DNA of 64,000 nt from an uncultured Clostridia bacterium. GTDB lineage: Bacteria > Bacillota > Clostridia > UBA1381. The translations under genes and the position numbers were made by a program. Where the stretch lies: NCBI GenBank assembly GCA_947585795.1, contig CANPXG010000004.1, forward strand, positions 1 through 64,000, read 5' to 3'. Positions 18,670-55,500 of the stretch are shown piece by piece. Each line of letters begins with the position of its first letter. Position 1 is the first letter of the stretch. The notes beneath the pieces were generated by a model. That model saw only the letters and a program-made list of their open reading frames with translations. It was not told the DNA's origin and ran no database searches.

Positions 18670-18936
18670 CTAAGCAGCAGAAAAATCAAGGGCGGGGGTG
18701 GGGGTGTCGGAGTGGCGGTCGTTATAGCTGACAATGAAGCCATTGGGGGAATAAATAGCATGGTGATGCGGGTTATGAGAAAGAGAAACGGGAATTTACC
18801 ACTTTTGAATTTTCAGAGCCGATAATAATTTGTACGATAGAGATGTTGTTATGGAAGTAATAACATCTCTTTTTGTATGAAAAAAATTATTAATGCCGGA
18901 TAGAATAAAAACCTACAAAATTCACTCGACCACCCC

Positions 18937-18965
18937 TTGCAATCCATCCGCATTTGTGCTACAAT
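18937..18965 (+). promoter_or_regulatory. Module promoter P1 (copy 1)
   Basis: TTGCAA-17-TACAAT, conserved in all three copies. Confidence 0.75.
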
Positions 18966-18971
18966 AAACTT

Positions 18972-19136
18972 ACATAAATTTTTATTTCCAATTTCAGCTC
19001 CCGCTTTTTAGGGAGCGAGGATACCGCAACCACTAACACTTTGCTGTTTTTTCCATGTTAGCGCGGTATCCTTTTCTTTAGTTACAGGACTTTTCCCACT
19101 ATAAAAATACATATTCCAACGAATATGTGTTTTTTT
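18972..19136 (+). ncRNA. Candidate structured small RNA, copy 1
   Basis: P1 promoter, GCTCCC/GGGAGC hairpin, GGATACCGC/GCGGTATCC stem enclosing CTAACA/TGTTAG, terminal hairpin ACATATTC-caac-GAATATGT then poly-T. Confidence 0.6.
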
Positions 19137-19194
19137 GCAGTCGCAATTACACTTTTTCGACAAATTTCAAGGCTGTCGATGGTATGCAGTATTA

Positions 19195-19295
19195 CTTCGT
19201 GGCGTCGTGTTCGGGCTTGTGTACGACGGTGATAAAGACACGCCGTCAAGTGCGAATGTGTGCTTGAGAAATCTAAAGATAAAGCAGGAATATAT
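19195..19295 (+). pseudogene. 3' remnant of the module's secreted-protein gene
   Basis: 'VFGLVYDGDKDTPSSANVCLRNLKIK' equals the C-terminus of the 40.7-kb and 45.5-kb proteins; the rest of the gene is absent. Confidence 0.85.
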
Positions 19296-26519: not shown

Positions 26520-26715
26520 CTCCCACACCATCTCGTAGGGCGGGCTGCCCTCAGCCCGCCTCCCCGACACCCTGACGGCAACGGTTTGTACGGGCAAACC
26601 ATCCTCCGCCCACCATTCGCCAATTACGGCGGGGTGAGGGCACCCCGCCCTACAACACGCTCCGCAAGGCTCCCCTTGAGGGGAGCTGTCAGCGTAGCTG
26701 ACTGAGAGGTGGCAA
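26520..26715. repeat. GC-rich palindromic repeat island
   Basis: Contains reverse-oriented 'ggctccccttgaggggagctgtcagcgtagctgactgagaggtggca', the complement of units at 41 and 47 kb. Confidence 0.75.
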
Positions 26716-30805: not shown

Positions 30806-32341
30806 ATGGAAAACACAGAGCAATTATCACAATTTTTGCAGGTGCGCCGCGATAAACTTGCGGAGCTTCAAAGCGAGGGAAGGGATCCGTTTCAAATCAC
30901 AAAATTCGATAGAACCGCCACTTCCGGCGACATCAGAGCCGTCGCGAGAGAGGAAGAGCGCGAGATAACAATGCGCGGCGAAACCAAGCGCGTAATCGCG
31001 AAAATATCGCTGTTCGACGGTCAGCAGGTCACTGTTGCTGGTCGAATACTCTCAAAACGTGGTATGGGAAAAGTAAGTTTTACCCATATTGCTGATATAG
31101 ATGGTCAGATACAACTTTTCGTCAAGAAGGATATTCTCGGCGAGGACGAGTATAACCGTTTCAAGAAGCTCGATATAGGCGATATAGTCGGCGCGCACGG
31201 CGAGGTTTTTACCACGCAGACCGGCGAGATTTCAATTAGAGTAGACGAGATAACGCTGCTCACAAAATCGCTTCAGCCGCTGCCGGAAAAGTTTCACGGC
31301 ATGACCGACACCGATTTGCGTTACCGTCAGCGTTACATCGACCTTATCATGAACGAGGACGTGAAAAAGACGTTTATGAACAGATCGAAAATCATCGCGT
31401 CGATTCGCTCGTACCTGAACGGACAGGGATTTCTTGAGGTTGAAACGCCGATGCTCGTGTCAAACGCGGGCGGTGCGGCGGCAAGACCGTTTGAAACGCA
31501 TTTTAACGCGCTCGACGAGGATTTTAAGCTGCGTATTTCGCTGGAATTGTACTTAAAGCGTCTTATCGTCGGCGGATTCGAGAAGGTTTACGAGATCGGC
31601 AGAGTGTTCAGAAACGAGGGACTTGACACGCGCCACAACCCCGAGTTCACGCTGATGGAGCTGTATCAGGCGTACACCGATTACCACGGCATGATGGATC
31701 TCACCGAGAACATGTACCGCCATGTCGCGCAGGAGGTGCTTGGCACGACGAAGATAACGTATAACGGCGTGGAAATGGACCTCGGCAAGCCGTTTGAGCG
31801 CATCACAATGGTCGACGCGGTGAAAAAGTATTCGGGTGTTGATTTTAACGAGATACACACGCTTGACGAGGCGCGCGCGGCGGCGGACGAGCATCATGTG
31901 GAGTACGAAAAGCGCCACAAGAAGGGCGATATTTTGAATTTGTTCTTCGAGCAGTTTGCGGAGGAGCACATGATCCAGCCGACGTTTGTCATGGATCACC
32001 CAATCGAGATCTCGCCGCTGACAAAGAAAAAGCCCGACAATCCGGAGTATGTGGAGCGCTTTGAGTTCTTTATGAACGGCTGGGAAATGGCGAACGCGTA
32101 CTCGGAGCTGAACGATCCGGTCGACCAGCGCGAGCGCTTTAAGGCGCAGGAGGAGCAGCTGGCGCAGGGCGACGAGGAGGCGAACACCACCGATGAGGAC
32201 TTTATGCGCGCGCTGGAGATAGGTATGCCCCCGACGGGCGGCATCGGTTTCGGCATCGACCGTATGTGCATGCTCCTCACCGACTCCCCCGCGATACGCG
32301 ATGTTTTATTGTTCCCGACAATGAAGCCGTTATCAGAATAA
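30806..32341 (+). CDS. lysS: Lysyl-tRNA synthetase (class II)
   Basis: 'DLRYRQRYIDLIMNEDVKKTFMNRSKII', 'FETHFNALDEDFKLRISLELYLKRLIVGGFEKVYEIGRVFRNEGLDTRHNPEFTLMELYQAY', 'GFGIDRMCMLLTDSPAIRDVLLFPTMKPLSE'. Confidence 0.97.
   Translation: MENTEQLSQFLQVRRDKLAELQSEGRDPFQITKFDRTATSGDIRAVAREEEREITMRGETKRVIAKISLFDGQQVTVAGRILSKRGMGKVSFTHIADIDGQIQLFVKKDILGEDEYNRFKKLDIGDIVGAHGEVFTTQTGEISIRVDEITLLTKSLQPLPEKFHGMTDTDLRYRQRYIDLIMNEDVKKTFMNRSKIIASIRSYLNGQGFLEVETPMLVSNAGGAAARPFETHFNALDEDFKLRISLELYLKRLIVGGFEKVYEIGRVFRNEGLDTRHNPEFTLMELYQAYTDYHGMMDLTENMYRHVAQEVLGTTKITYNGVEMDLGKPFERITMVDAVKKYSGVDFNEIHTLDEARAAADEHHVEYEKRHKKGDILNLFFEQFAEEHMIQPTFVMDHPIEISPLTKKKPDNPEYVERFEFFMNGWEMANAYSELNDPVDQRERFKAQEEQLAQGDEEANTTDEDFMRALEIGMPPTGGIGFGIDRMCMLLTDSPAIRDVLLFPTMKPLSE
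32313..32331 (+). repeat. att direct repeat (lysS-proximal)
   Basis: tcccgacaatgaagccgtt; 18/19 match to 39287-39305. Confidence 0.8.
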
Positions 32342-32468
32342 ATGGCATAAAACAAGGCTTTGCAGGGTTTGCAAGCCTAAATTTACGACCAACTTACGAC
32401 CAAATAAAGAGAACACACTCAAAAAATCGCCTACGGTAAATCCATAGGCGATTTTTGCATATACTTTT

Positions 32469-33815
32469 TTACTCTACCGTTACTGTTTTCGCCTCGCACA
32501 GTGGGCGCATTCCGTTAAGGCTGTCCCAAGCGAATATCTTTACGCTGTCCGCGTCGTCGGCGTCTATAATCAATGTTTTTTCTGTTTCGCCCGCCGAAAC
32601 AGTGTCAAATGCCACTCCCGACATATTGTTTCCTTTAAGTGCGACAGTGATTATATGGCTGTCATATTCCACACTTTCAAAAGGTACGCTGACTTTAACC
32701 GTTCCGCTTTCTTTGACAGCGGTCATATTGTCCGCAATTATCGGAGCTGCCGTTCCTATCGCGTTATAATGAATTGTGGGCGGTGTTTCAATAGACATAC
32801 TGCTCCAAAGATAGCGCGATGCAAAACTGTCCCAACGTTCCTTTGAACCGCCGTAATACACGTCTGACAAATGCTCACATAATCTAAATGCCCCCTCGTT
32901 AATGCGGTTAATGCTGTTCGGTATTAAAACGCTTTTAAGGCTCGCGCATTGGTCAAACATTCTATTGCTTACGCTTGTCAAACTGCTTGGCAGTATAACA
33001 TCTGTCAAGTTGTCACAGTGAAAAAATGTGCAGTAGTCAGCACTTGTTATACAGTTTGGTATTGTTATGCTCGTCAGTCCTAAGCAACGAGCAAATGCGT
33101 TATTGCCAAGTTCGGTTACGTTTGTCATAGTCGGAATGTCGGTTAATTTACTGCCGCCGAAAGCGGAGTTGCCGATTCTTGTCACAAAGTCCGGTACGGC
33201 ATATGTTTCTTCTTGTTTTCCCGACGGATATTGTTTTAACTCGCTTTTATCTTTGCTGAACAAAACGCCATCCACAGAACAATAATTAGGATTATTGTCT
33301 CCGACCTCAATATCGGTTAAGCTATCGCAGTATCCGAAGGCGGAGTCACCTATCTCAGTAACGGTATCGGGTATTGTTACTTTGGGCAGACTGTCACACT
33401 CCGTAAACGCGTCATTTTTAATACTATGCACACTATTGGGAATTATTATATTCGTCAAGCTTTTACAACCATTAAAAGCCCAACCTCCAATTTCCGTAAC
33501 GCTGTCGGGTATTGTTACGCTCGTTAGATTTTCATGTAAATAGAATGAACCGTCTCCGATGCGCGTCACTCCGCTTTCAATGATGACTTTTACTACGCTG
33601 TCACGATTACGCCGCCAAGATGTGTCAAGGGAAGAAATAACGGGACCGGGATTGGACATTTCCCCCTCGCCGCTTATGGTAAGAGTTCCGTTATCATCAA
33701 GCGTCCAAGTAACATTTGTTCCGCATTTGCCGCTGTCAATAACTGCCGCCTTTGCAAAACAGGGTATGCACATCGCGATACATACCGCAGAAATTAGAAT
33801 AAATATCTTTTTCAA
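32469..33815 (-). CDS. Secreted BspA-type leucine-rich repeat protein (element cargo)
   Basis: Repeats 'IPDSVTEIGGWAFNGCKSLTNIIIPNSVHSIKNDAFTECDSLPKVTIPDTVTEIGDSAFGYCDSL'; signal peptide. Confidence 0.92.
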   Translation of the reverse strand: MKKIFILISAVCIAMCIPCFAKAAVIDSGKCGTNVTWTLDDNGTLTISGEGEMSNPGPVISSLDTSWRRNRDSVVKVIIESGVTRIGDGSFYLHENLTSVTIPDSVTEIGGWAFNGCKSLTNIIIPNSVHSIKNDAFTECDSLPKVTIPDTVTEIGDSAFGYCDSLTDIEVGDNNPNYCSVDGVLFSKDKSELKQYPSGKQEETYAVPDFVTRIGNSAFGGSKLTDIPTMTNVTELGNNAFARCLGLTSITIPNCITSADYCTFFHCDNLTDVILPSSLTSVSNRMFDQCASLKSVLIPNSINRINEGAFRLCEHLSDVYYGGSKERWDSFASRYLWSSMSIETPPTIHYNAIGTAAPIIADNMTAVKESGTVKVSVPFESVEYDSHIITVALKGNNMSGVAFDTVSAGETEKTLIIDADDADSVKIFAWDSLNGMRPLCEAKTVTVE

Positions 33816-33953
33816 TTTAAAAACCTCCTATATTTCCAATATACCAATATCATATCATATAATGTGCCTAATTGCAACAATTTTTTTGATACATACAGAT
33901 AGTGTATAGCTATGTCTAAAAGCAATATAATATATTTAATAAAAATATAATAA

Positions 33954-34292
33954 ATGAGGGTATCGCGTATGAATTTGGATAAACTCGGCTCAAAAATAAA
34001 GAATAACAGACGACTTTTGAAATTGACGCAAGAGCAGCTGGCAGAGCTGATAGATGTCAGTCCACACTATATCTATGAGATAGAAAAAGGATTAAAAACA
34101 CCGTCCTTGCCTATATTAATTGCTATTTCCGAAAATCTGCATATCAGCATAGACAATCTTCTTTCCGCAACATCACAAAATGCCGATAGAAATGGTGATG
34201 AGCTTGACCGCTTAATAAATAATCTTAACGCGGAACAAAGAGCTAATCTCGCCAAGGTTATTCGCAGTCTTTTCCCGTGGCTGAGGCTTTAA
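33954..34292 (+). CDS. XRE-family HTH regulator
   Basis: 'LGSKIKNNRRLLKLTQEQLAELIDVSPHYIYEIEKGLKTPSLPILIAISENLHISIDNLL'. Confidence 0.9.
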   Translation: MRVSRMNLDKLGSKIKNNRRLLKLTQEQLAELIDVSPHYIYEIEKGLKTPSLPILIAISENLHISIDNLLSATSQNADRNGDELDRLINNLNAEQRANLAKVIRSLFPWLRL

Positions 34293-34471
34293 CAGTATAA
34301 TTTTTAAATTTTCAGTTACTTATCAAGTAAGACAAAGGTGTAATAAATACAGGAAATTTGCAATTGGATAAAAAAATAAAAAATTTTCAAAAAAAATCTT
34401 GACAAAGTTATTATGGAGATGTATAATAGTGGTACAGAGGGAGTATGAGTATAGGATAGGGAGACATAACA

Positions 34472-34861
34472 ATGAGTGTTCGAATACAAGTCATTATTAC
34501 AGATGATGAATATGCGGCGATAAAAGAGAAAATTAACCGTGAAAATATAAGTCTGTCTCAGTATGTGCGCAGTTGTCTTTTCCCAATAAATAATAAACTT
34601 ATTGAAAAAGAACGAACCGAATTTGAAAAATTATGGGAATTGTATAAACAACGCTTGGTCGAATATCCAGTTGACACACCATTTAACGTTTCTCAGATTT
34701 TAAGCGATACGAAGTGGAAAAGCCTAGATAGATCTACAAAATTGTCGCTTGCGCGGTTACTTAATCGCAACGTTAAGTCGGGAAATCTACCGAATGTCGT
34801 AAATATCGGGCGACGTTCTGGGAACGTAACATATTATAAAAAAATCAGAATTGACGGGTAG
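34472..34861 (+). CDS. Element protein with N-terminal RHH-like region (C-terminal DUF1413-like)
   Basis: 'DDEYAAIKEKINRENISLSQYVRSCLF' and 'FNVSQILSDTKWKSLDRSTKLSLARLLNRNV'; promoter TTGACA-17-TATAAT upstream. Confidence 0.55.
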   Translation: MSVRIQVIITDDEYAAIKEKINRENISLSQYVRSCLFPINNKLIEKERTEFEKLWELYKQRLVEYPVDTPFNVSQILSDTKWKSLDRSTKLSLARLLNRNVKSGNLPNVVNIGRRSGNVTYYKKIRIDG

Positions 34862-34901
34862 AATTGGATTTTTTCCATCTGCCCATTAATTAACCCATGG
34901 G

Positions 34902-34925
34902 GAGTATTACTATTAAGTAATACTC
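34902..34925. promoter_or_regulatory. Perfect 10-bp inverted repeat (hairpin/operator)
   Basis: GAGTATTACT-atta-AGTAATACTC. Confidence 0.7.
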
Positions 34926-34973
34926 GTTACTATAAAACTTATTATTCTGCAATATAGAAAGGAGGTGATATAA

Positions 34974-35207
34974 ATGCAGATGAAATTGTTAGGCTTCAAA
35001 CCTGTAGATTTCACCAATCGTGATGGTGACCGCGTCACCGGTAACACTTTATATGTTGGTTATCTAGAAGATGGCGTTACGGGATATGTGACGGAAAAGT
35101 TTTTTGTCGGAAATCGGATTGAAATGCCGAAAGTATTGTCCGTAAACGACAACTTAGACATTTCCTTCAATCAGAAGGGCAAAATTTTATCAGTAAAAAA
35201 GGCTTGA
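34974..35207 (+). CDS. Small element protein, unknown function
   Basis: 77-aa ORF with RBS aaaggaggtg in a collinear element operon. Confidence 0.6.
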   Translation: MQMKLLGFKPVDFTNRDGDRVTGNTLYVGYLEDGVTGYVTEKFFVGNRIEMPKVLSVNDNLDISFNQKGKILSVKKA

Positions 35208-35220
35208 TTGCCTAAACGGT

Positions 35221-35277
35221 GCGGCTGGCGGCAATGCAGTAAGCGAAGCCGCCGAGCCGCCCGCCGCTTCGCGGCGG
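35221..35277. other. GC-rich double hairpin, candidate oriT/ssDNA origin
   Basis: GCGGCTGGCGGC(15 nt)GCCGCCgAGCCGC then CCGCCG-cttcg-CGGCGG, upstream of the HUH Rep gene in AT-rich DNA. Confidence 0.5.
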
Positions 35278-35324
35278 TATTAACTTGATTATTTGCTTAT
35301 AATAGCAGAAAGGAGTACGTTGTT

Positions 35325-36227
35325 TTGGTAACGATTGAAAAAATTGATAATAATAGTGTAGTTATTGATGGTAAGTCAATCGTTAAAGTGAAAATTACGG
35401 GCAATATTATTGAAGTAAAATTCATTAACCGACCTATAGTTCAAACGATACAAAAAATAGACTCTCAAAGCTATATAAATTTATCCACTGGCGAGCTAAA
35501 AAAATTCAAACAGAATGAGACAAGAATTGATAATTTGAAAAGTTTAAAAACCTCTATGCGGAATTTACGGGATATTATAAATACGAATTGCGTTGATTTA
35601 AAGAAATGTAAATTTTTGACGTTAACCTATCGAGAAAATATGAAGGACTGTAAAAAATTGTATGCCGATGTAAAAAAATTCCATATGCGCTTCAGGTATT
35701 ATTTAAAAGATATTCCATTTAATTACATAAGTGTGATTGAGCCTCAAGGCAGGGGCGCATACCATATACATGAGATTCTTATTTTTGAGCACAAAGCCCC
35801 ATATATTGATAACCAAAAAGTAGCTGAGATTTGGAAACATGGTTTTACAAAAACAGAAAACATTAAAAACGGTGTAGATAATATAGGAATGTATTTGTCA
35901 AGTTATTTTTGCGATGTAATTAATGAGGACGCAACTGTTTCAGACACAGAAGCAGCAAAATATTCTAAATTTGTTACAAATGAAAGTGGTAAAAAAGTTT
36001 CAAAACGCGTTTTAAAAGGAGCAAGATTGAAATATTATCCCCAAGGATTCAGATTATACAGATGTAGTCGAGGAATAAAACGTCCTGCAGTATTTGAATG
36101 TTCAAATGAATATGCTATGAAACTAGTAGAAAATGCAAATTTATTTTATGAACAAACCATTAAAATAACAGATAACGACTATGTAAACATCATTAATTAC
36201 AGGCAATATAGTTGTAAAATTCAATAA
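35325..36227 (+). CDS. HUH-type replication initiator/relaxase-like protein
   Basis: 'CKFLTLTYRENMKDCKKLYADVKKFHMRFRYYLKD' (motif 1), 'VIEPQGRGAYHIHEILIF' (HxH motif), downstream Tyr 'NIGMYLSSYF'. Confidence 0.75.
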   Translation: MVTIEKIDNNSVVIDGKSIVKVKITGNIIEVKFINRPIVQTIQKIDSQSYINLSTGELKKFKQNETRIDNLKSLKTSMRNLRDIINTNCVDLKKCKFLTLTYRENMKDCKKLYADVKKFHMRFRYYLKDIPFNYISVIEPQGRGAYHIHEILIFEHKAPYIDNQKVAEIWKHGFTKTENIKNGVDNIGMYLSSYFCDVINEDATVSDTEAAKYSKFVTNESGKKVSKRVLKGARLKYYPQGFRLYRCSRGIKRPAVFECSNEYAMKLVENANLFYEQTIKITDNDYVNIINYRQYSCKIQ

Positions 36228-36235
36228 CAGAAAAA

Positions 36236-36259
36236 AGTTTTGTGTATCAACACAAAACT
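36236..36259. promoter_or_regulatory. Perfect hairpin between rep and ftsK-like genes
   Basis: AGTTTTGTGT-atca-ACACAAAACT. Confidence 0.6.
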
Positions 36260-36291
36260 ACAAACTGGGTTCTTAGAAAGGAGAACATGAT

Positions 36292-37662
36292 ATGAACAAA
36301 AAAGAAAACACTCAAATTAAACCGCATAAATATTATGGCATGAGGTTTTCCAGTGGTATGGACAATCTTATAACCCAGACCGCGCCGAAACTCATACTAT
36401 TAGTAAGTATAATAATATATTTTTTCATTATCACGATTGTTATGATCAATATATACAATCTTGAAGCAGGATCATTACAAAATATCCTAAATACAATCTC
36501 AAAATTTGTTTTTCCTGCAATGGGCATAATTGGATTTGTCATGCTAATAATAACATTTGGTGTACCTAACGCTAGTACAATTTACGAGAATTTTGTGAAA
36601 GGCGAACTAACGAATAGTGTAAATGAACCACCTATACTGCTCTCTAAAAGAAAATATAAGGGAACAAGCGCAATAGAATATACATTCTATTTTAATGGCG
36701 TCGTGAAAAAAGTATTTGAGGAAAAAAAAGATGTACTGGCAAGTAGCCTGAATATGGAAGTGGTAGATATAGACTATAAACTCCGAGGAAAGCATAAAAA
36801 AATTAATAAGCAACAAATAGTTGTAACATGTGTACCTTCCGATGGTATACCTGAAAAAATATATTGGAATGACAAATATTTACATCCCGACAGAGATATT
36901 ATTACTCTCGGTGTAAACTGGCTTGGTGCTGTGACCGTTGATTTGAAGAAAACACCACATATGCTTATTGGTGGCAGTAGCGGTTGCGGAAAAACTGTTT
37001 TGTGCCGAAGTTTAATACATCAGTTTGTAGAACACGGAGACAAGGTATATATAGCTGATTTTAAAGGTATAGACTTTTTTGAAGAAGAAGAGGCAGGATA
37101 TGAAGTCATTACTGACGAGACGATTTTTAAAAATTTAATAATTGATGTACTTGATACACTTGATACTCGTAAGGAAATATTCAGGCAAGCGCATGTAAGA
37201 AATTTGAGTCAGTACAATAAGAAAAATCCAAGTAACCAACTTCCGCGAGTCGTTCTTTTCATTGACGAAGCTGCCGAGGTCTTAGACGCTACGGGATTGC
37301 CAAAAGAGCAGAAATTAGAAATAGCCGAGGTGACTGGTTTGTTATCAAAAGCTGCTAGAAAATACAGAGCATTAGGCTTGACCTTATGTATATGTACACA
37401 ACGCCCATCAAATGATATTATTTCGGGTCAGATAAAAAATAATCTTGATCTGCGTATTGCTGGTAAATGTGACGATGTTCTGAGCGATATAATACTTGAT
37501 ACAACCGAAGCGTCAAGACAAATTCCAAAGAATTCTGTTGGTTTGTTTTTCTCAAACACTAATGGCTTATTTCGTGGATTATTGTTAGATGAAGATGTGA
37601 ATGAGGTGAATAGCCATAAAAAAGGAAATTCCCATATGGGAAAAATCAAATCTCACGCTTGA
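36292..37662 (+). CDS. FtsK/SpoIIIE-domain DNA translocase / coupling-protein-like (TcpA-like)
   Basis: Two N-terminal TM helices, Walker A 'IGGSSGCGKTVLCRSLIHQF', Walker B 'RVVLFIDEAAEVL', 'LGLTLCICTQRPSNDIISGQIKNNLDLRIAGK'. Confidence 0.9.
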   Translation: MNKKENTQIKPHKYYGMRFSSGMDNLITQTAPKLILLVSIIIYFFIITIVMINIYNLEAGSLQNILNTISKFVFPAMGIIGFVMLIITFGVPNASTIYENFVKGELTNSVNEPPILLSKRKYKGTSAIEYTFYFNGVVKKVFEEKKDVLASSLNMEVVDIDYKLRGKHKKINKQQIVVTCVPSDGIPEKIYWNDKYLHPDRDIITLGVNWLGAVTVDLKKTPHMLIGGSSGCGKTVLCRSLIHQFVEHGDKVYIADFKGIDFFEEEEAGYEVITDETIFKNLIIDVLDTLDTRKEIFRQAHVRNLSQYNKKNPSNQLPRVVLFIDEAAEVLDATGLPKEQKLEIAEVTGLLSKAARKYRALGLTLCICTQRPSNDIISGQIKNNLDLRIAGKCDDVLSDIILDTTEASRQIPKNSVGLFFSNTNGLFRGLLLDEDVNEVNSHKKGNSHMGKIKSHA

Positions 37663-37813
37663 AGAAGCTGCGGCATATTTCAATATCGGCATAAATAAGC
37701 TGCGTGAAATCACTAACAATGAAAAGTGCGACTTTGTAATTTGGGTTGGAAGTAAGCGGCTTATCAAGCGGAAAATGTGTGAGGAATATTTGAAAAAAAT
37801 ATATTCTGTATAA
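37616..37813 (+). CDS. Tn916-type excisionase (Xis)-like protein, no canonical start codon
   Basis: Frame overlapping the ftsK-like 3' end encodes '[65 protein letters not shown]'; absent from the ORF track. Confidence 0.8.
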   Translation: [65 protein letters not shown]

Positions 37814-37818
37814 TTGTC

Positions 37819-37869
37819 TGGACAAGAGAACACACTTATGTTATAATGTATGTATGGGTGTGTTCTCTT
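37819..37869 (+). promoter_or_regulatory. Integrase promoter straddled by 12-bp inverted repeat
   Basis: TGGACA-17-TATAAT with AAGAGAACACAC (37824-37835) and GTGTGTTCTCTT (37858-37869). Confidence 0.6.
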
Positions 37870-37900
37870 TATTGTTATGAGATGAAAGGAGAATATCATC

Positions 37901-39190
37901 ATGGCGATAAAGAGAAGAAAAGACGATAAAAAACGAGTTTTAAAAGAAGGTGAATATCAGAGAGCAAACGGCACATTTGAATATAAGTGGCGTGATAAAA
38001 AGGGTAAAAGACACTCTATATATGCCAAGACTTTAGAGGAGCTTCGAGAAAAAGAAATAGACGTTTTGCGTGACGCTTTGGACGGTATCAGAACGGATAA
38101 AAAAGATTTAACGATTAATGATTTATATAATTTCTGGGCCCAATTAAAGCGCGGCATAAAGGCTAATACATTTGCTAACTATAAATATATGTATACGCAA
38201 TTTGTTCAGCCTGATTTCGGAAATTCAAAAATCAATGAATTAAAGAGGACTGATATACGAGCTTTTTACAATAACCTTGCAGACGAACAGCATTTAAAAG
38301 CGGCTACAATAGACAATATACATACTGTGTTACATCAAGTTTTGGAATTAGGTGTTGAAGATGATTATTTGAGGTATAATCCCTCGGATAACGCTTTGAA
38401 AGAATTGAAAAAAGCTCATAATAATGATTCCGAAAAACGCAAGGCGTTGACAGTTCCCGAACAGGAATTATTTGAAACATTCCTTAAGCGGAAAGGGCAG
38501 TATAACAAGTGGTATCCGATATTTACAGTTATGCTTTGGACAGGCTTAAGAGTAGGTGAAATAACAGGTTTGCGCTGGTGTGACATTGATATGAAAGATG
38601 AAACTATAAGCGTAAATCACACGCTTGTCTTTTATAGCAAAGGTAAAAATCAAGGCTGTTCATTCGCTGTAAATACGCCGAAAACCGAAGCAGGCAGAAG
38701 AATAATACCAATGCTCCCGAAAGTAAAAGAAGCGTTTATGCTTGAAAAGCAGTATCAAGAGGAATGCGGAATAAATTGCAGAGCGACAGTTGACGGATAT
38801 ACCGATTTTATATTTATCAATCGGTTTGGTGACGTTCAACATCAAGGGACGCTTAACAAGGCGTTGCGGAGAATTATCCGAGATTGTAATTATTGGGTAT
38901 TAGACCAAAACAAGAAAAATCCTGTCACGCTTCCAAAGTTCAGCAATCATTCATTACGGCATACTTTTACAACTCGTATGTGCGAGGCGGGCGTTAATAT
39001 CAAGGCTATGCAGGAAATACTCGGTCATGCGGACGCTGAAACGACAATGGATATATATGCCGAAGCCACAAAGGATTTAAAACGTGCGGAATTGATAAAT
39101 TTTGAAGATTATTTCAATAAACAAAAAACGGCTCAATCGGACATTTCAAACCTTACGACCAATTTACGACCGATTTACGACCAATTATAA
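37901..39190 (+). CDS. int: Tyrosine recombinase/integrase, Tn916 Int-like
   Basis: Arm-binding N-terminus 'ANGTFEYKWRDKKGKRHSIYAKTLEELREKE', catalytic 'LWTGLRVGEITGLRW', 'HSLRHTFTTRMCEAG', 'LGHADAETTMDIYAE'. Confidence 0.97.
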   Translation: MAIKRRKDDKKRVLKEGEYQRANGTFEYKWRDKKGKRHSIYAKTLEELREKEIDVLRDALDGIRTDKKDLTINDLYNFWAQLKRGIKANTFANYKYMYTQFVQPDFGNSKINELKRTDIRAFYNNLADEQHLKAATIDNIHTVLHQVLELGVEDDYLRYNPSDNALKELKKAHNNDSEKRKALTVPEQELFETFLKRKGQYNKWYPIFTVMLWTGLRVGEITGLRWCDIDMKDETISVNHTLVFYSKGKNQGCSFAVNTPKTEAGRRIIPMLPKVKEAFMLEKQYQEECGINCRATVDGYTDFIFINRFGDVQHQGTLNKALRRIIRDCNYWVLDQNKKNPVTLPKFSNHSLRHTFTTRMCEAGVNIKAMQEILGHADAETTMDIYAEATKDLKRAELINFEDYFNKQKTAQSDISNLTTNLRPIYDQL

Positions 39191-39286
39191 AGAGTTGTAG
39201 AGGTTTATGCGATTTGAGAAATGAAACAATGGTATTATATTGGGATATAAAGACCGTTAAGGGGTTATAAATTATCCGAAAAGATG

Positions 39287-39305
39287 TCCCGACAATGAAA
39301 CCGTT
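39287..39305 (+). repeat. att direct repeat (distal) with displaced lysS 3' tail
   Basis: tcccgacaatgaaaccgtt followed by gggggaataa, i.e. reads PTMKPLGE* in the lysS frame. Confidence 0.8.
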
Positions 39306-39494
39306 GGGGGAATAAAGCGCATAATGGTGCGGGTTGTGAGAAAGTGAAACGGGGTTTACCACTTTTGAATTTTCAGAGCCGGTAATAATTTGTACGACAG
39401 AGATGTTGTTATGGAAGTAATGACATCTCTTTTTGTGTAAAAAATTATTAGTGCCGGATAGAATAAAAACCTACAAAATTCACTTATCCACCTC

Positions 39495-39523
39495 TTGCAA
39501 TCCATCCGCATTTGTGCTACAAT
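39495..39523 (+). promoter_or_regulatory. Module promoter P1 (copy 2)
   Basis: TTGCAA-17-TACAAT. Confidence 0.75.
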
Positions 39524-39529
39524 AAACTT

Positions 39530-39692
39530 ACATAAATTTTTATTTCCAATTTCAGTTCCCGCTTTTTAGGGAGCGAGGATACCGCACCCACTGACACTTT
39601 GCTGTTTTTTCCATGTTAGCGCGGTATCCTTTTCTTTAGTTACAGGACTTTTCCCGCTATAAAAACACATCCTCCAACGAATATGTATTTTT
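39530..39692 (+). ncRNA. Candidate structured small RNA, copy 2
   Basis: Same stems as copy 1 with pairing-compatible changes (GTTCCC/GGGAGC; CTGACA/TGTTAG); terminal hairpin partly decayed. Confidence 0.55.
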
Positions 39693-39746
39693 TGCAGTCG
39701 CAATTACACTTTTTCGACAAATTTCAGTAAAATTTTTCAAAAATAC

Positions 39747-39775
39747 TTGACAACAGCGTCTGTGTTATGTAGTAT
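39747..39775 (+). promoter_or_regulatory. Module promoter P2 (copy 2)
   Basis: TTGACA-17-TAGTAT just upstream of the secreted-protein ORF. Confidence 0.75.
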
Positions 39776-39823
39776 TACTTTGTGGCGTTGTTAAACGCAA
39801 ATACGGTGGGAAGCGGTGGTAAG

Positions 39824-40780
39824 ATGAAGAGGTTTGCGGGTTGGGTGATGAGTGCTGCAATTGCGGTGTCGGTCCTGCTTTCCGTGTGCTGCGGTGCATA
39901 TGCGGATGACAGCAGCCTATCCGTATCGGCGCAAATGAACCGCGACGGTAAACTTACTGTAACTCCCTCGCTCACTTGCGGCTACACAAATGAACACCCG
40001 CCGAAAGCACCTCTTATTATTGCCGTTTATGATGATGCAAATGCTCTTGCCGCTATAAATGTGCAGGAAGTAACGCTTGCGGGCAGTACCGTGGAGGTAA
40101 GCCCTGTGGTGTTCGGTGACTTAGAATGTGATATGCTTAGGACGTATACAATAAAAGCGTTTTTATGGGAGAATTTGTCTACAATACAGCCGAGCGCGCT
40201 TAACGTTATTGCAAAGACCGATTTTCCGAATATCCAATATAATAATTCCCAAATGCTTAGGGATGAGAATAACAACAGATACGTTATGTTTAACGATAAC
40301 GGAGAAAACAGCCTTATATATGATTTTGCGAACACGTCTTTTCCGCTTAGTATTGAGTTTGATATGAAGGTAGATAATATTAAAGAAGTCGGGGACGTAT
40401 TCGGTATGGCGATGTTTAGCGGAGAAACGGAGATAGCCGGTTTTGGGCTGTATAAAAGACTGAGCGATGATATGTGGCTGCCGCACGAGAACAATGCGGA
40501 ACAATATTTAAACATCAATGCGGCTTATGCAGAAACGGAGTACTACAAAAACAAATGGCTGCACATCGAAACGGAAGTAGTCGGTGAAACATCGATAGAA
40601 AGAGTGAATGTAAAAATATACGATGAAACAGGTGAAAACCTTTACTCGTACACGCAAGACATAACATGTGAGGAACATGATTTTCCGGTAAACCGACTTG
40701 TGTTCGGGCTTGTGTATGACGGCGACAAAAATACACCGTCAGGCGCAAATGTGTGCTTAAGAAATTTAAAGATAAGGTAG
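39824..40780 (+). CDS. Secreted protein of the repeat module, unknown function
   Basis: Signal peptide 'MKRFAGWVMSAAIAVSVLLSVCCGAYA'; close paralog at 45512-46468. Confidence 0.8.
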   Translation: MKRFAGWVMSAAIAVSVLLSVCCGAYADDSSLSVSAQMNRDGKLTVTPSLTCGYTNEHPPKAPLIIAVYDDANALAAINVQEVTLAGSTVEVSPVVFGDLECDMLRTYTIKAFLWENLSTIQPSALNVIAKTDFPNIQYNNSQMLRDENNNRYVMFNDNGENSLIYDFANTSFPLSIEFDMKVDNIKEVGDVFGMAMFSGETEIAGFGLYKRLSDDMWLPHENNAEQYLNINAAYAETEYYKNKWLHIETEVVGETSIERVNVKIYDETGENLYSYTQDITCEEHDFPVNRLVFGLVYDGDKNTPSGANVCLRNLKIR

Positions 40781-40788
40781 GAATATAT

Positions 40789-40818
40789 AAAAAACCGCAT
40801 AAATATGCGGTTTTTTTA
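40789..40818 (+). terminator. Module terminator
   Basis: AAAAAACCGCATA-aa-TATGCGGTTTTTTT. Confidence 0.85.
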
Positions 40819-40839
40819 TTGGGATGATAGGCGTACTAC

Positions 40840-41245
40840 TACACATTTCGCCATCGCGCGGGCGGAAAGTGAACCACACGCCTCGCGTGTGGTAGGCGTG
40901 TTGCGAAGCAACAGACGCCGTAGCAAAGCAGCCCGTACAAACGTTGCCGGCGGGGTGTCAGGGGAACGGCGGGGTGGGGGCACCCCGCCCTACAAGCGGA
41001 CGAACGCGATTCGTCTGTACAGTATGTAATTTATAAATTCGATGCCACCACCTCTCAGTCAGCTACGCTGACAGCTCCCCTCGAGGGGAGCCTAAAAGCG
41101 GAGCAACAAGCGCCGTAGCAAAGGGGAGCCTAAAAGCGGAGCGACAAACGCCGTAACAAAGGGGAAGGCTAAGGGCGACTGTGAGGGTCGCCCCTACAAA
41201 CCCCTCAGTCGCCGGTGGCGACAGTTCCCCTACGGAGAGAGGCGG
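40840..41245. repeat. GC-rich palindromic repeat island
   Basis: Units 'cacacgcctcgcgtgtggtaggcgtgttgcgaagcaacagacgcc' and 'cagtcagctacgctgacagctcccctcgaggggagcc'. Confidence 0.8.
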
Positions 41246-45511: not shown

Positions 45512-46468
45512 TTACTTTACCTTTAGATTTCTCAAGCACACATTCGCACCTGACGGTGTGCCTTTGTCGCCGTCATACACAAGTCCGAACACAAGTCGAT
45601 TGACGGGCAGATCATATTTTGTGTATGTTATGCCCTGTGTGGACGAGTAAAGGTTCTCACCTGTTTCATCATATATCTTCACATTCACTTTTTCTATAGA
45701 TGTTTCACCGACTATTTCTGTTTCGACGTGCAGCCATTTGTTTTTGTAGTACTCCGTTTCTGCATAATTCTCATTGATGTATAAATACTGTTCCGCATTG
45801 TTTTCATGCGGCAGCCACATATCATCACTCAGTCTTTTATATAGTCCAAAACCGGCTATCTCCGTTTCATTGTTGAACATCGCCATGCCGAACACATCTC
45901 CGGCTTCTTTGATGTTATCTATCTTCATATCAAACTCAATACTAAGCGGAAAAGACGCGTTCGCAAAATCATATATAAGGCTGTTTGTGCCGTCATCGTT
46001 AAACATGATGTAACTGTTGTTATTCTCATCCCTAAGCATTTGGGAATTATTGTATTGGATATTTGGAAAACTGGTTTCATCTATAACGTTAAGCGCGCTC
46101 GGCTGCATTGTAGATAAATTCTCCCACAAAAACGCTTTTATGGTATATGTCCTTAGCATATCGCATTCCAAGTCACCGAACACCGCAGGGCTTACCTCTA
46201 CAATGTCTTCGGCAAGTATTACTTCCTGCACATTTATAGCGGCAAGCGAGTTCGTATCATCATAAACAGCGATAATAAGAGGTGCTTTCGGCGGGTGCTC
46301 ATTTATGTAGCCGCAAGTGAGCGATGGGGTTACAGTAAGGTTCCCGTCACGGTTCATTTGCGCCGATATTGATAGGCTGCTGTCGGTTGCAGTTACGCTG
46401 TAGCACATGGAAAGCAGTACCGACACCGCAATTGCAGCGCTTACAACCCAACCCGCAAACCTCTTCAT
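45512..46468 (-). CDS. Secreted protein of the repeat module, paralog
   Basis: Closely similar by eye to the 39824-40780 product; signal peptide 'MKRFAGWVVSAAIAVSVLLSMCYSVTA'. Confidence 0.8.
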   Translation of the reverse strand: MKRFAGWVVSAAIAVSVLLSMCYSVTATDSSLSISAQMNRDGNLTVTPSLTCGYINEHPPKAPLIIAVYDDTNSLAAINVQEVILAEDIVEVSPAVFGDLECDMLRTYTIKAFLWENLSTMQPSALNVIDETSFPNIQYNNSQMLRDENNNSYIMFNDDGTNSLIYDFANASFPLSIEFDMKIDNIKEAGDVFGMAMFNNETEIAGFGLYKRLSDDMWLPHENNAEQYLYINENYAETEYYKNKWLHVETEIVGETSIEKVNVKIYDETGENLYSSTQGITYTKYDLPVNRLVFGLVYDGDKGTPSGANVCLRNLKVK

Positions 46469-46598
46469 CTTACCACCGCTTCTCACCGTATTTGCGTTTA
46501 ACAACGCCACAAAGTAATACTACATAACATAGGCGCTGTTGTCAAGTATTTTTGAAAAATTTTACTGAAATTTGTCGAAAAAGTGTAATTGCGACTGC

Positions 46599-46781
46599 AA
46601 AAAATACATATTCGTTGGAATATGTATGTTTATATTGCGCTTTGTTATTCGCAATGGGAAAAGTCCTGCAAATAAAGAAAAGGATACCGCGCTAACATGG
46701 AAAAAACAGCAAAGTGTCAGTGGATGCGGTATCCTCGCTCCCTAAAAAGCGGGAGCTGAAATTGGAAATAAAAATTTATGT
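46599..46781 (-). ncRNA. Candidate structured small RNA, copy 3
   Basis: Same stems; terminal ATACATATTC-caac-GAATATGTAT-poly-T; P1 TTGCAA (46811-46816) and TACAAT (46788-46793), 17-bp spacing with a diverged spacer. Confidence 0.6.
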
Positions 46782-46844
46782 AAGTCTATTGTAGCACAAA
46801 TTAGGAGAGATTGCAAGAGGTTATTGCTGCAACGAGAGAAAATT

Positions 46845-46949: not shown

Positions 46950-47925
46950 GGGTGGGGTGTTGGGGAGGGGGACGAATGCGGTTCGCCCGTACGGAATGTA
47001 ATTTATAAATTCAATGCCACCTCTCAGTCAGCTACGCTGACAGCTCCCCTCAAGTGAACCACACGCGAAGCGTGTGGTAGGCGTGTTGCGAAGCAACAAA
47101 CGCCGTAGCAAGGGGAGCCTTGCGACGGAGCAACAGACGCCGTAGCAAAGGGGAGCCCGTACGGACACCTCATCCACCGCTGACGCGGTCTCCCTTCCCC
47201 TCAAGAGGAAGGCTAAAGAGGGGCAACAAACGCCGTAGCAAAGGGGAGCACGTACAAACGTTGCCGGCGGGGTGTCAGGGGAACGGCGGGGTGAGGGCAC
47301 CCCTCCCTACAAGCGGACGAACGCGGTTCGTCTGTACGGACACCTCATCCACCGCTAACGCGGTCCCCCTTCCCCTCAAGTGAACCACACGCGGAGCGTG
47401 TGGTAGGCGACAAACGCCGTAGCAAAGGCAGCCCGTACAAACGTTGCCGGCGGGGTGTCAGGGAGGCGGGCTGGGGGCAGCCCGCACTACGGGAATGGGA
47501 CGTCGAAGGCGCCGTCCCCTACAAACCCCTCAGTCATTTGTCATGCAAATGACAGCTCATTCGCTACGGCATACGAGCATAGCTCTATGCCTACGACGCT
47601 GAAGCGTCGTTCACCTATTAGGGGAGCCTTAAGGTGAGAGAACGCGGTTCGTCTGTACGGGATGTAATTTATAAATTCAATGCCACCTCTCAGTCAGCTA
47701 CGCTGACAGCTCCCCTAGTAGGGGAGCCTGACGGCGGAGTAACAAACGCCGTAGCAAAGGGGAAGGCCAAACGCCGTAACAAAGCACCCCGCACTACGGG
47801 AATGGGACGTCGAAGGCGCCGTCCCCTACAAACCCCTCAGTCGCCTACGGCGACAGCTCCCCTAGCAGGGGAGCCTTACGGCGAAGCAACAAACGCCGTA
47901 GCAAAGGGGAGGCTTAGGAAGGGGT
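46950..47925. repeat. ~1-kb mosaic of GC-rich palindromic repeats
   Basis: At least four 'cagtc-[stem]-gacagctcccc...ggggagcc' units and several 'gtaggcgtgttgcgaagcaacaaacgccgtagcaaag' units; no convincing CDS. Confidence 0.85.
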
Positions 47926-49512: not shown

Positions 49513-52500
49513 TTAATATTCACATGAAGCTATCAATATGTCATTGTACGCCCAGTGCGACGCGTCCACGTCGCTGAACGGGCAGGTGAGTGCCGCCGTT
49601 TGGTCGGTCATTTTTCTGCCGAGAATACGGTTTATCATAGATACCGTTTCGGCGCGCGTTACGCGGTTTTTGGGAAGGAACGTGCCGTCGCCGTAGCCGC
49701 TTATAACGCCCATCAGGGCGAGCGTGTTTATCTCGTCGCGGCACCACTCAAACTGTGCCGTGTCGATGAATACATCGTTGGTTTCGACTGTGTCGATACC
49801 GGCGAACCGTGCCAGTATGGCGGCAAATTCGGCGCGCGTTATCATGTTTTCAGGGCGCACGCTTCCGTCCTCGTAGCCGGAAATGTAACCCTTGGAAACG
49901 GCGAAGTTGATGTAATTCGTATACCATGCGTCCGCGTTCATGTCGGGGAATACGTTCGGGTAGACGGTGTTTTCGTCAAAGCTGTTGTCGAGCATCGCCA
50001 GTATTTTTGAGATCTCCGCGCGGGTGATGGTGTTGTCCGGTCGGAACTCTGACAAATCGCTGTCGCCGTAGCCGCTTATGTACGCCGTGCCGTTGTCGGG
50101 TATCGGCGTAAAGCTTGTGTCGGGCACCGGTGTTGGTGTCGGTTCAATCGTCTGCTCGGGCGGTGTTGTCGGTTCCGGAGTAGTTTGCGGTGTGGGCTCG
50201 GGTGTCGGCGTTGACGCGGACGAGTTTGACGATGAACCGCCGCCACCGCGTTTCTTTTTCTGCGTGACAGTCACGTAGTATTTGTGTTCCACGCCGTACT
50301 CGTTCACTACCGTGTAAACAACGGGTGTTTCCGAGGAATTTGTGAAGTCCTGCGCGCCCTTGGGCGAATAATCCGTGCCTACGTAGTCGAGTATCGGTTC
50401 CACCGCCTTCAAATCCGCGCTTGACGGAAGAACGATGCTTATGTTGTCGCCGTCGTATACCGTGTCGCCGTCCCGGTTTTCAACCGTCATGCTCTTAATG
50501 TACGGATCCTCGCCTTTTTTCGTTACGTGAACGGTGTATGTGACGCTTTCGTCGCCCGACGAGGACAGCGTGTAGGTCACGGGGTTCGTGAAGTCCTGAG
50601 GCGCGTCGGCGCTCGGGGTTATTGTGTCCGCATCGTATGTTATTTGAGGCGTTACCGCTGTTATGTCCTGTGTATACGGAACGGTTATGTTAATGTCCGT
50701 GCCGTTGATCTCCGTTTCGCCCTCCTGAACGTCGGGCAAAGTGAATTCCGTGATCGCGCGCGTCGTGCGGCGCGGTACGGTTATTTCGGAGCCCTCTATG
50801 ACCGTGCCGTCGAGCGTGAAGCGCATGCGGTAGGAACGCGCTGCCGTTGTGCTGTCGTTATGCGGTACAAGCACGCTCCACTCTGCTTTGCCCGTGCTGA
50901 AGGACTGTCTTTCGACCGCCAAGCTCTCGCCGCTGTCCGATATGACTTCAAGCACAGCCGAGTCGAAGAAAATGCCTTCTATTTTGATAAGCACGTTTCC
51001 GCCGAGGAAATTCGTCGGCGAAATGTAAGAAATATTCGTGATTTGCGGTTGTCCGTCACGGGTGATATGAACTGTGTATTCCCTGCCCTCGTCGTCATTG
51101 TCGGCGTAAATCGTATACACCAATGACTTTGTGGGATTGTTGAAATTAACCGTGCCCTCCGGCTCGTAGCGGTCGCCGTCATATTGAAGGGTAGGCGTGA
51201 TTTCCGTCAGGTCAGTGTCATAGTATACTTTGATATATATGTCCGTGTCGGTGATCTCCGCCGCCTGTACCTGTCCTTTATCTAACATAAAGTGGCTTAT
51301 CGCCTTAGTCTTGCGGCGCGGTACGGTTATTACAGCCTTGTGGGTATACTCTATCGGCTCCGTGAAGCCGTCAAGATAAATTTCTATCTCGTATTCCTTG
51401 TCGGTGTCGCTATCGTTTTCGGGGATGTTAAGCGTTGCCACTCCCCCGCCCTCTTTCAAAACGGCATCCGCCTCAACGCTGTCGCCGCCGCCCACGGGCA
51501 CCGCGACAACTCTCGCGCTGTAGAAGAATACTCCGTCTATCTCAACGTCTACCTGTGAAGCCTTGTAGCTTGTCGGAGTGTTGGCAAGCTCCACCGAATG
51601 AATTATCGGTGTGCCGATGCGCTCGGCGCTCGCCGTATACGTTCTGTCCGTATCACCCATAGCAGAAACGGTGTACACAACCTCTTTTTTGTCCAAATCC
51701 ACTATGTCGGTCGGAGTATAGCTGTCGCCGTCATACTGTACGGACGGGAAGATATGCGTCAGGTCGGAGTTATACGGCATCGAAATCAATATGCGGTTGC
51801 CGTTTACCTCGTCCTCGATAATCTGCGTGTTTGCCGCGCCCGGTACGCCGAATGACGTTATCTTACGCGTTTTGCGGCGCGGGACGGTCAGCGTTTCGGC
51901 AATTTGACGCTCCGTACCGTTGAGGTATATTTTTAAATCGTATATCTGATTTGTTTCCGTGCTTTCGTTTATCGGAAGAGTAAGATGTCCCGTCGCTTTA
52001 CCGGCGTAATTATCGCCGTAGTCCACGGTGCCCTTTATCGCGTCCGCAGCGCTGCCGCCGCGCGGAATAGCCTCGATTTCCAAGGTGTCCGTCGGTGTTC
52101 CGTCACCGAGAAGGGACGGTATAAATCTTCCTTCTATGTTGACGGTGATATTCGTGTCCGAATAATACTCGGGCTTTTTCGCGCTGAAAACGTCAATTCT
52201 CGGCACGCCGATACGGCGCACGTGAACGGTATACGTGTTTGATGTGCCGTCAAGCGCGTACACGGTGTATTCCACGTCGTTATTGAAATTCTGCGCGCCT
52301 GTCGGTGTGTAGCTTTCACCTGAATAGTAGACCGTCGGCTCTACGTTCCTGAGGTCTGTGTTGTACGGGACCGCCACTTCTATCACGGTCTTGCCGTCTG
52401 TTTCCGTTATGCGCGGCTCGCCCTGCTCCGGCGAAATTATAATACCCGTCATGTACGCCGCGTTGTCCTCTCTCGAGGGCACGGTAAGCTTGTATTCACG

Positions 52501-55500
52501 GTCAAGAGATTGTTCCTCGTTGCCTATTTTGGCGGATAGGAGGTAAACTCTTTCCTCCGTGGACGGGTTGCTCGGCACTGTCAGCGTCGCGACAAAGTCG
52601 CCTGTTTCCTCGTTCTTTCTCACCGTCGCGGGTAAAACGTCCGCATTGACAGCGCTGCCCGACAGAAGCAGCGCCGATACCGTCATATACGATCCCCTTA
52701 CCGAATTTGCCGCGTTTTCAAGATTTTCACCTCTGACTATTACGTCCACCTGTCCCGCGGAGCTGTATTGCGGATCGTCAAATTCCAAGCTTGTAATTAC
52801 GGGCGCAGCCTGTTTCGTGACATGAACGTAATACTCGTGAGTGTCGCCGTTTTCGGCTGTTACCGTGTATATTACCTCGGAGTTAAAGTCCTGCGCCTCA
52901 AAGGGTGAGTAACGCGCGTTATCGGACACTGTGATCTGCGGCTCAAGCGCGCTTAAGTCCGCGTCATACGGCATCGTTATGCGTACTTCTCCGTCGGTAA
53001 TCACGCTCTCGCCCACCTGATTCGGCAGCGTGAACGAAAGTATCTTGGTTCCGCTTTTCGGTTTTCTCGGAACGCGGAGCGTTTGCGTGTACGCCTGTAC
53101 GTAATCGTTTCCGATCCTCGCTTTGATCGTATATTCCGCCACAGCGTTATCGTCATCGTTCGCGGGAGCTGCTATGTCGGCGACATATCTGCCGCTTTCA
53201 CTGTCGTAGACCGCCTTGACGGGCGCTATCGCGCCGTCCTCGGAATAGATCCATATATCTTTATTTTCCGCATGCTCCGCGTGGTCAAGTCGGTCAAGCG
53301 CGGAGCCTGTTATCGTGACGCGCACCGTGCCGCCCTCCGACGTATTCGGATTTGTAAAGGTAAACGACGTTACAGTCGGCGCGGCTTCCTTGTAGATGTA
53401 TACCTCGTAGACGGTGGTTGTTCTTTCGTCCTTGGCTCTTACGGTGTAATTTGTTCTCATTACCCCGTTTGACTCATGGAATGACGCCATGCCGACAGAC
53501 GGATCTATGGATGAACCGATATATGTTATATCCGCGTTGTACCACGTTATATAGTCATGATCCCACGGCATGTATACATATATGGTCGAATTGCGGTTTT
53601 CGTGGTCGTAAATCTCGCTGCGTATCTGTCCCTGAATTTCAAATGCCGTAATCTGAGCCACCGTATTGTTATACGGCAGATAAACGGTACGTCCGACATC
53701 TACTTTCTCGCTGCCTTGAATTTGATAGTACACGCTGTAGTTTATGGGCGTGTCATAGCTTTTGTTTTCGGGGAAGGTAAACGTCGCGCTGTACGAGTTG
53801 TCCTCTTCGACGATAATGTCCGCCGTCAGCGTATCGTACCCTTCCATGTCGGGAACGAGTACAAGCTTCACGCGGTCGGGCAATATCGTGCCCAATACCG
53901 TGATTTTAAGTTCGCCGCCTTTGTATGTCAGGCTATCATACAATATATTATCTACCGAAAGCGCGCGCAAATCTACCGCGCCGCCCGCGCCGTTGATTTT
54001 GATCGTTCCGTTGTACTCCTTGTCGTCATATGTGACGCTTATGTTGTACTGACCGTCGGGAACGAGCAGGTAGAGCGTTGCGTCGTCGTATATGTAATAC
54101 GTTTTGCTCTCGGCATCATCGTCAGATTTGTATACACATTCATGCAGGTCTTTGTTGTCGGAATCTATGCGCGCGGTAAGCTGGTAGAGCGCCGTGCCGT
54201 CAGCGGTTTTCGGGCAGACGGAGGAGCCGCTGCTTGAGTAGGTGCCGTCTATACGCGCGTAGTCAATGCCGTCGGTTATGAAGCTGCCCTCGCCGTTAAG
54301 CGCGTTCGTGCCGTCGGGAGATACTATGCGTATGGGCATTTCGGTGACGGTCATAGAGGTCCTGTTTGCTATGTTTATCGCGTTTGAAGCGTTGCTTTCC
54401 ACGTTCAAAACAGCGTTTTCATCGCCTTTTTTCACGACAAAGCTAAGCTCTTTAAATGTCATGTATGTGCCCGATACGGAAATTGCGTTCGCGGTTTGAG
54501 ATGTTATGCTGCACTTGCCCACAACGGTAAATTCCGTGTCCCAATTTATTTGTACGGACGCGCCGCTGTGGTTCGTATCGATCGTCACGTTGTCCAGCGT
54601 TATCGGGGGAAGTACGGTTCCTTCCGCATTCTTCTCCGTCTGAGTTGAAAGTATATGCGTATCGGTGGAGCCTATGATTTTGTAGCCTCCCGTATCGGGG
54701 TTGTACGCCGTGCCGCCGTACAGCACGTACTCGTCCGAAATTACGATGTCGCCCTTTGAAATATCGTATGTTGTCGGGTTTGTATCGCCTATATCGTCAA
54801 GGACGAGGGTGATCGTGTACTTTACCTCTTTTTTATCGTGTCCCGTTACGGTGTACTCCGCCGTGTGTCCCTCGCCCGAAAAGTTCAGTCTGCCCTCCGT
54901 GGCTGTCGCGCCGGTGTACTCGCTCGTCGGTTCTATGAGCTCAAGCTTAATGTTTTCGGGTACGTGAACCGTTACGGTGTGATCTGCCTCGTTTATTACT
55001 GTATCCTTGGTCTGACCGGGAACGGTAAAGCTTGTAAGCTTTGTTTCGGGATTTAATATACATTCCGCGGTATTGTCCGCGTTTACCTGGATCCTTGTAT
55101 AGTAGTAATACGTGTTGCCGTCCTTATATACGCGTATCCATCTCATGCCCGGTACAAGGTAGAGGTATAATTTGCCTTCCTCGTCCGTGCTTGTCTTTAT
55201 CTTAGTTGCAGGTTCTTCGTCGCCGTCTATCGAGTATTCAACGTCTTCCGCGCCCGTAATGCCTTCAACGGTAACGGTGACGGGACGAAGATTTGTAGAG
55301 GCTGCAGAGATTGGCGGATCGCTGTTGTAGTTTTTAAAGTCGGCTTTGACGCTGCCGCCGTTTATTGTGACTTTTGCAGATCTGTTGGAGGCGCCTCGGT
55401 CAATGCCGACACCGCCGTTTTCGCCGCCCTTAGCCGATACAAAGCCGCCGTTTATTTCGATGTTAATGCCGCCTGAGGACGTGTTTGAACTGATACCGAT

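Follow-up and report, generated by a model that had tools for sequence, protein, structure and literature searches.

The trans-acting small RNA (sRNA) genes of bacteria are the described systems to which the element reported here is most readily compared. Like them, it is a short intergenic gene with its own promoter, stable hairpins and a U-rich 3' end; unlike them, it has no single-stranded seed shared across species and its genus has no detected Hfq. Three copies lie in a 64,000-nucleotide stretch of an uncultured Clostridia genome (the window), and the sequence indicates that the element is probably a transcribed, structured small RNA gene. A first-pass annotation of this DNA had not recognized the element as 6S, tmRNA, SRP RNA, RNase P or a known riboswitch. 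This agrees with an Rfam 15 cmscan of the window and the other loci, which returned nothing at gathering score, including for 6S, tmRNA, SRP, RNase P, T-box and riboswitch models; relaxed E-values gave chance-level matches only.

Architecture of the element

Each window copy is preceded by the promoter TTGCAA-17-TACAAT that the first-pass annotation had described, with a TG ahead of the -10 box (extended -10). It was read in the sequence of all three copies and found by promoter scan for copy 1. The copy 1 promoter spans positions 18937 to 18965 on the plus strand (TTGCAA at 18937-18942, a 17-nt spacer and TACAAT at 18960-18965) and aligns with that of the sister species. Those of copies 2 and 3 were located by sequence at 39495-39523 (plus strand) and 46788-46816 (minus strand). 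From the distance to the -10 box, transcription of copy 1 would start at about 18972, giving an A/U-rich 5' leader (18972-18996, plus strand). This leader is the same in copies 1 to 3 and the sister-species leaders do not align to it. The gap between the -10 box and stem 1 is about 31 nt in each window copy.

Stem 1 (18997-19016 in copy 1, plus strand) is a GCTCCC/GGGAGC hairpin with an 8-nt U-rich loop. It is present in all three window copies, with GTTCCC in copy 2 giving a U.G pair. Stem 2 begins immediately after it in the window copies. In copy 1 (19017-19073, plus strand) it is composed of an 11-bp outer stem, GAGGATACCGC/GCGGTATCCTT, a 5/1-nt internal loop and a 6-bp inner stem, CTAACA/TGTTAG, closed by a 17-nt U-rich loop. 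The same organization, a long hairpin GGATACCGC/GCGGTATCC enclosing CTRACA/TGTTAG, is seen in all three copies, the 5' arm of the inner stem reading CTAACA or CTGACA and the 3' arm TGTTAG. Both hairpins had been claimed for each copy in the first-pass annotation and were found there. An integron attC site, considered in view of the CTAAC/GTTAG boxes and of GNAT and methyltransferase neighbours, was rejected because these boxes sit inside the hairpin and not at its base.

A U-rich tail, CCTTTTCTTT, lies directly 3' of stem 2 (19072-19079 in copy 1, plus strand) and, from its sequence, probably corresponds to an intrinsic terminator and to the 3' end of the conserved RNA. Further downstream, copy 1 carries a terminal hairpin, ATACATATTC/GAATATGTGT, followed by poly-T (19103-19134, plus strand). 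This third hairpin pairs perfectly in copy 1 and is intact in copy 3, but is interrupted by two mismatches in copy 2, where it is not a conserved feature; the earlier claim of a terminal hairpin with poly-T in every copy thus stands for copies 1 and 3 only. The stretch between stem 2 and the terminal hairpin is itself variable, with a 19-nt insertion in copy 3. Because of this variable stretch and of the broken hairpin in copy 2, the third hairpin was placed outside the conserved unit and the RNA end was set after stem 2. The conserved unit would therefore be a predicted transcript of approximately 107-115 nt ending at stem 2 and the U-rich tail. In copy 2, the RNA (leader, stem 1, stem 2 and U tail) occupies 39530-39637 on the plus strand, with a covariance-model match at 39552-39637 (101-102 bits), and in copy 3 it occupies 46674-46781 on the minus strand, with a match at 46674-46759 (104 bits). 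The predicted folds are far more stable than those of dinucleotide shuffles, with z = -7.4 for full copy 1, -6.6 for full copy 3 and -5.0 for the copy 1 core.

The TTTTCTTT directly 3' of stem 2 is also what would be expected of the main rival to an RNA gene: a dispersed intergenic promoter-plus-terminator repeat, whose stem 2 and T-run would be useful as a terminator while no functional RNA is made, the hairpins being kept for their effect on transcription termination. A terminator, however, requires neither loops of 17-28 nt nor a conserved separate stem 1. We regard this reading as unlikely, though it is the alternative to be taken most seriously.

Segmental duplication and the linked 332-aa ORF

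The origin of the window copies in duplicated segments was overlooked in the first-pass annotation. Window self-comparison aligned 39490-40824 with 46821-45462 at 88% identity, a 1.3-kb block holding copies 2 and 3 together with a 332-aa ORF, and 18730-19169 with 39291-39726 at 93% identity; approximately 200 bp upstream are also common to copies 1 and 2. The ORF, which looks secreted and has no Pfam match, lies at 39785-40780 on the plus strand, with a GTG at 39782 and its own promoter at about 39748, and was duplicated with RNA copy 2. Its paralogue (45512-46510, minus strand) was duplicated with copy 3, while a remnant corresponding to the last 37 aa is found 3' of copy 1 (19174-19284, plus strand). 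By this comparison, copy 1 is the same block as copies 2 and 3 after some 970 bp were deleted internally, leaving just the last 37 codons of the ORF. The three window copies are, on the same grounds, recent segmental duplicates and non-independent, so that their mutual agreement by itself proves little. The differences between copies that had been put forward as preserving pairing do preserve it (for example the U.G pair of stem 1), but since they separate recent duplicates they are weaker evidence than was claimed.

Between copies 2 and 3, the RNA with its leader differs at 3 of 114 sites (2.6%) and the promoter boxes at none, whereas the linked ORF shows 128 differences over 996 sites and 74 over its 331 third codon positions (22%; p = 1e-7 for the RNA versus third positions). 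This suggests selection on the RNA, although the 55-nt linker beyond it is 100% identical in the two copies and gene conversion could account for part of its low divergence. The comparison of the RNA with the flank at 39638-39784 gave p = 0.16.

Copies 2 and 3 and one copy outside the window (C66a, see below) precede secreted-protein genes (for the 332-aa protein or an NlpC/P60-like protein), and two others (G009 and C74) precede related methyltransferase genes, an arrangement which could reflect a riboswitch-like 5' leader or attenuator of the downstream gene. We judge this improbable. In copies 2 and 3 a separate promoter, TTGACA...TAGTAT, precedes the 332-aa ORF, as had been noted in the first-pass annotation. 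Moreover, the downstream genes differ from copy to copy with no constant linkage, and the next gene is convergent in one sister species (G012). Copy 1 retains the RNA though its ORF has been lost and the sister species carry the RNA without the ORF, while the ORF occurs without the RNA on another contig of the same genome (C7) and in genome G014. This argues against a 5' UTR of the 332-aa ORF. A linkage of the RNA to the ORF was rejected in the same way, as each occurs without the other. The 332-aa protein family itself includes two full copies and one remnant in the window and a partial copy at a contig end (G000:C7:3-671); G014 encodes a 55% identical relative.

A small integrative/mobilizable element (32313-39316) adjoins copy 2. 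It encodes an XRE regulator, a NikA-like protein, an ORF2/G2P-type Rep, an FtsK-like ATPase and a Tn916-type tyrosine integrase, and appears to be inserted in the lysS 3' end, whose sequence (TCCCGACAATGAAGCCGTT at 32313) recurs beyond the integrase as TCCCGACAATGAAACCGTT at 39287. A third lysS-end remnant is located upstream of RNA copy 1, at about 18728. The window also includes short dispersed intergenic repeats that match one another many times over 30-240 bp (40858-41174, 46974-47918, 250-590, 1755-1915 and 26522-26714). Two minus-strand neighbours, 49513-57840 and 60853-63954, are very long ORFs of the surface-protein type (2775 and 1033 aa) with repeats, a glycine-rich stretch and apparent SLH-like C-termini.

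Pairing and distribution across the genus

The window's genome (G000) contains six copies in total. Of the three beyond the window, C66a has a degraded yet recognizable promoter, C66b follows an ORF and has no promoter, and C74, which has lost the promoter and half of stem 1, starts directly at a GNAT gene's stop codon. The two promoterless copies look exactly like the terminator use described above, and are probably left with no role but to terminate transcription of the genes ahead of them. The first-pass annotation had proposed a covariance-model search of related genomes. With a model built from the six G000 copies only, matches were obtained in 2 of the 15 other genomes of the genus, both from uncultured Clostridia: G009 (56.5 bits) and G012 (51.3 bits), each with a single copy 3' of folE. 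The RNA is therefore present in 3 of the 16 genomes of the genus. The sister-species copies have the promoter TTGCAA-17-TAAAAT, again with TG ahead of the -10 box. Weaker matches in the genus (G006, G010, G013, G015 and others) were rejected as simple terminators sharing the CCGC arm; such plain terminators among the weak matches are compatible with a terminator repeat. Conversely, a promoter at conserved spacing is retained in six of the eight copies and across species, the -35 box and TGCTANAAT being kept while spacer and leader diverged, which is not expected of a terminator repeat.

The element is narrowly distributed. Searches covering 70 genomes of the family and 95 of the order in all gave no copy outside these three genomes, and even samples of the class (391 genomes) and phylum (399 genomes) gave none either. 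The region downstream of FolE in G010, G013 and G015, where FolE is 98% identical, does not contain the RNA. DNA pattern scans of genome contigs recovered the sister species, the other 11 matches being coincidental, in coding or unrelated DNA. Gene order around the RNA is, from the neighbouring sequences, reshuffled: a GNAT acetyltransferase gene adjoins it at G000:C66:6785-7425 and G000:C74:5374-5930, on opposite sides, and a methyltransferase gene lies 3' of the RNA in C74, with a homologue 3' of the RNA in G009. A small coded peptide was rejected, the 23-24 codon frame in the G009 and G012 leaders being absent from the window copies.

Pairing was assessed on an alignment of the eight sequences, which effectively represent two lineages. 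Standard pairs occupy 96.7% of cells, versus 41-54% after shifting the partner by 1-3 columns. In three pairs both partners have changed (A-U to G-C, C-G to U-A and A-U to G-C); these changes all separate G000 from G009 and G012, and may represent few events. The covariation score was reached in 4 of 500 shuffles. The few broken pairs occur in the C66 and C74 copies, close to or at the ends of helices. Paired columns vary less than unpaired columns over the eight sequences (p = 4e-8). In the comparison of G009 with G012 alone, loops and leader differ, but 0 of 46 paired columns do (p = 5e-6). The stems keep their sequence and not just their pairing, beyond what base pairing in a terminator repeat would require. 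Between species, conservation is lowest in the single-stranded regions, which suggests an RNA recognized by its structure and speaks against a conserved antisense seed. The second loop is rich in U in every species (10/17, 9/16, 18/27 and 20/28 U).

Changes on one side of a pair tend to give G.U on the promoter strand, where 174 of 180 cells pair versus 163 on the complement. This bears on a further possibility, that the inverted repeats act as DNA, either as a small MITE-like mobile repeat or as a recombination or attachment site. Six copies in differing contexts within one genome, a patchy occurrence across the genus and the integrative element next to copy 2 are all compatible with such an origin. 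However, G.U pairs on one strand are A.C mismatches on the other, the spacing between arms varies, segmental duplication accounts for three of the copies, and the integrative element ends in the 3' end of lysS and not at the RNA. No related copy was found in viral contigs, phages or plasmids, two matches to the loosest pattern being left aside. An element acting as DNA is, to our mind, the least probable of the readings considered.

Proposed function and relation to known RNAs

We favour, with somewhat better than even confidence, a lineage-specific, free-standing structured RNA gene whose stable predicted transcript of approximately 107-115 nt would act in trans through its structure, putatively bound by a protein. 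The element combines a conserved sigma-A-type extended -10 promoter with a short leader and with two hairpins that have U-rich loops and strongly conserved stem sequences, a U-rich tail directly following the second one. The stable RNA would end at stem 2, and a protein may bind the conserved stems and/or the U-rich loops. Hfq was detected in none of the 16 genomes of the genus, in a search whose control gave a hit in 5 of 14 known genomes and with the window's own assembly 86.5% complete; it is therefore probably not the partner. In the window's genome, the gene has been multiplied by segmental duplication. A more specific proposal, which we put forward only tentatively, is that of a recently amplified protein-binding RNA presenting the U-rich loops of its two stems to a non-Hfq protein, as a sponge or scaffold.

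The first-pass annotation had likewise interpreted the element as a free-standing sRNA rather than a 5' UTR. Promoter and stems shared across species, and structure with covariation over the eight sequences, support this, whereas the narrow spread (three species), the small number of sequences and the unconserved third hairpin weigh against it. If expressed, the element would constitute an sRNA family new to Rfam in uncultured gut Clostridia, from a genus without detectable Hfq in which sRNA regulation is little known, and an example of a small RNA gene amplified through segmental duplication. Its restriction to a few species within a single gut Clostridia genus limits its broader importance.

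Among known RNAs, the antiterminator/terminator of T-box leaders (RF00230) offers a partial likeness: a GAGG..UACCGC string, located in GAGGATACCGC, is followed by a terminator-like hairpin. However, the element lacks the UGGN, Stem I and specifier of a T-box, has no match in Rfam even at E-values up to 10, and is followed by a promoter belonging to the downstream gene. With 6S RNA (RF00013) it shares small size and a long hairpin, but it has no large symmetric central bubble and no Rfam match, and it is multi-copy and found in one genus. It is comparable in kind to the candidate structured RNAs predicted from human microbiomes (PMC8040213) and from bacteria and metagenomes (PMC2864571), which are, like it, conserved structured intergenic RNAs.
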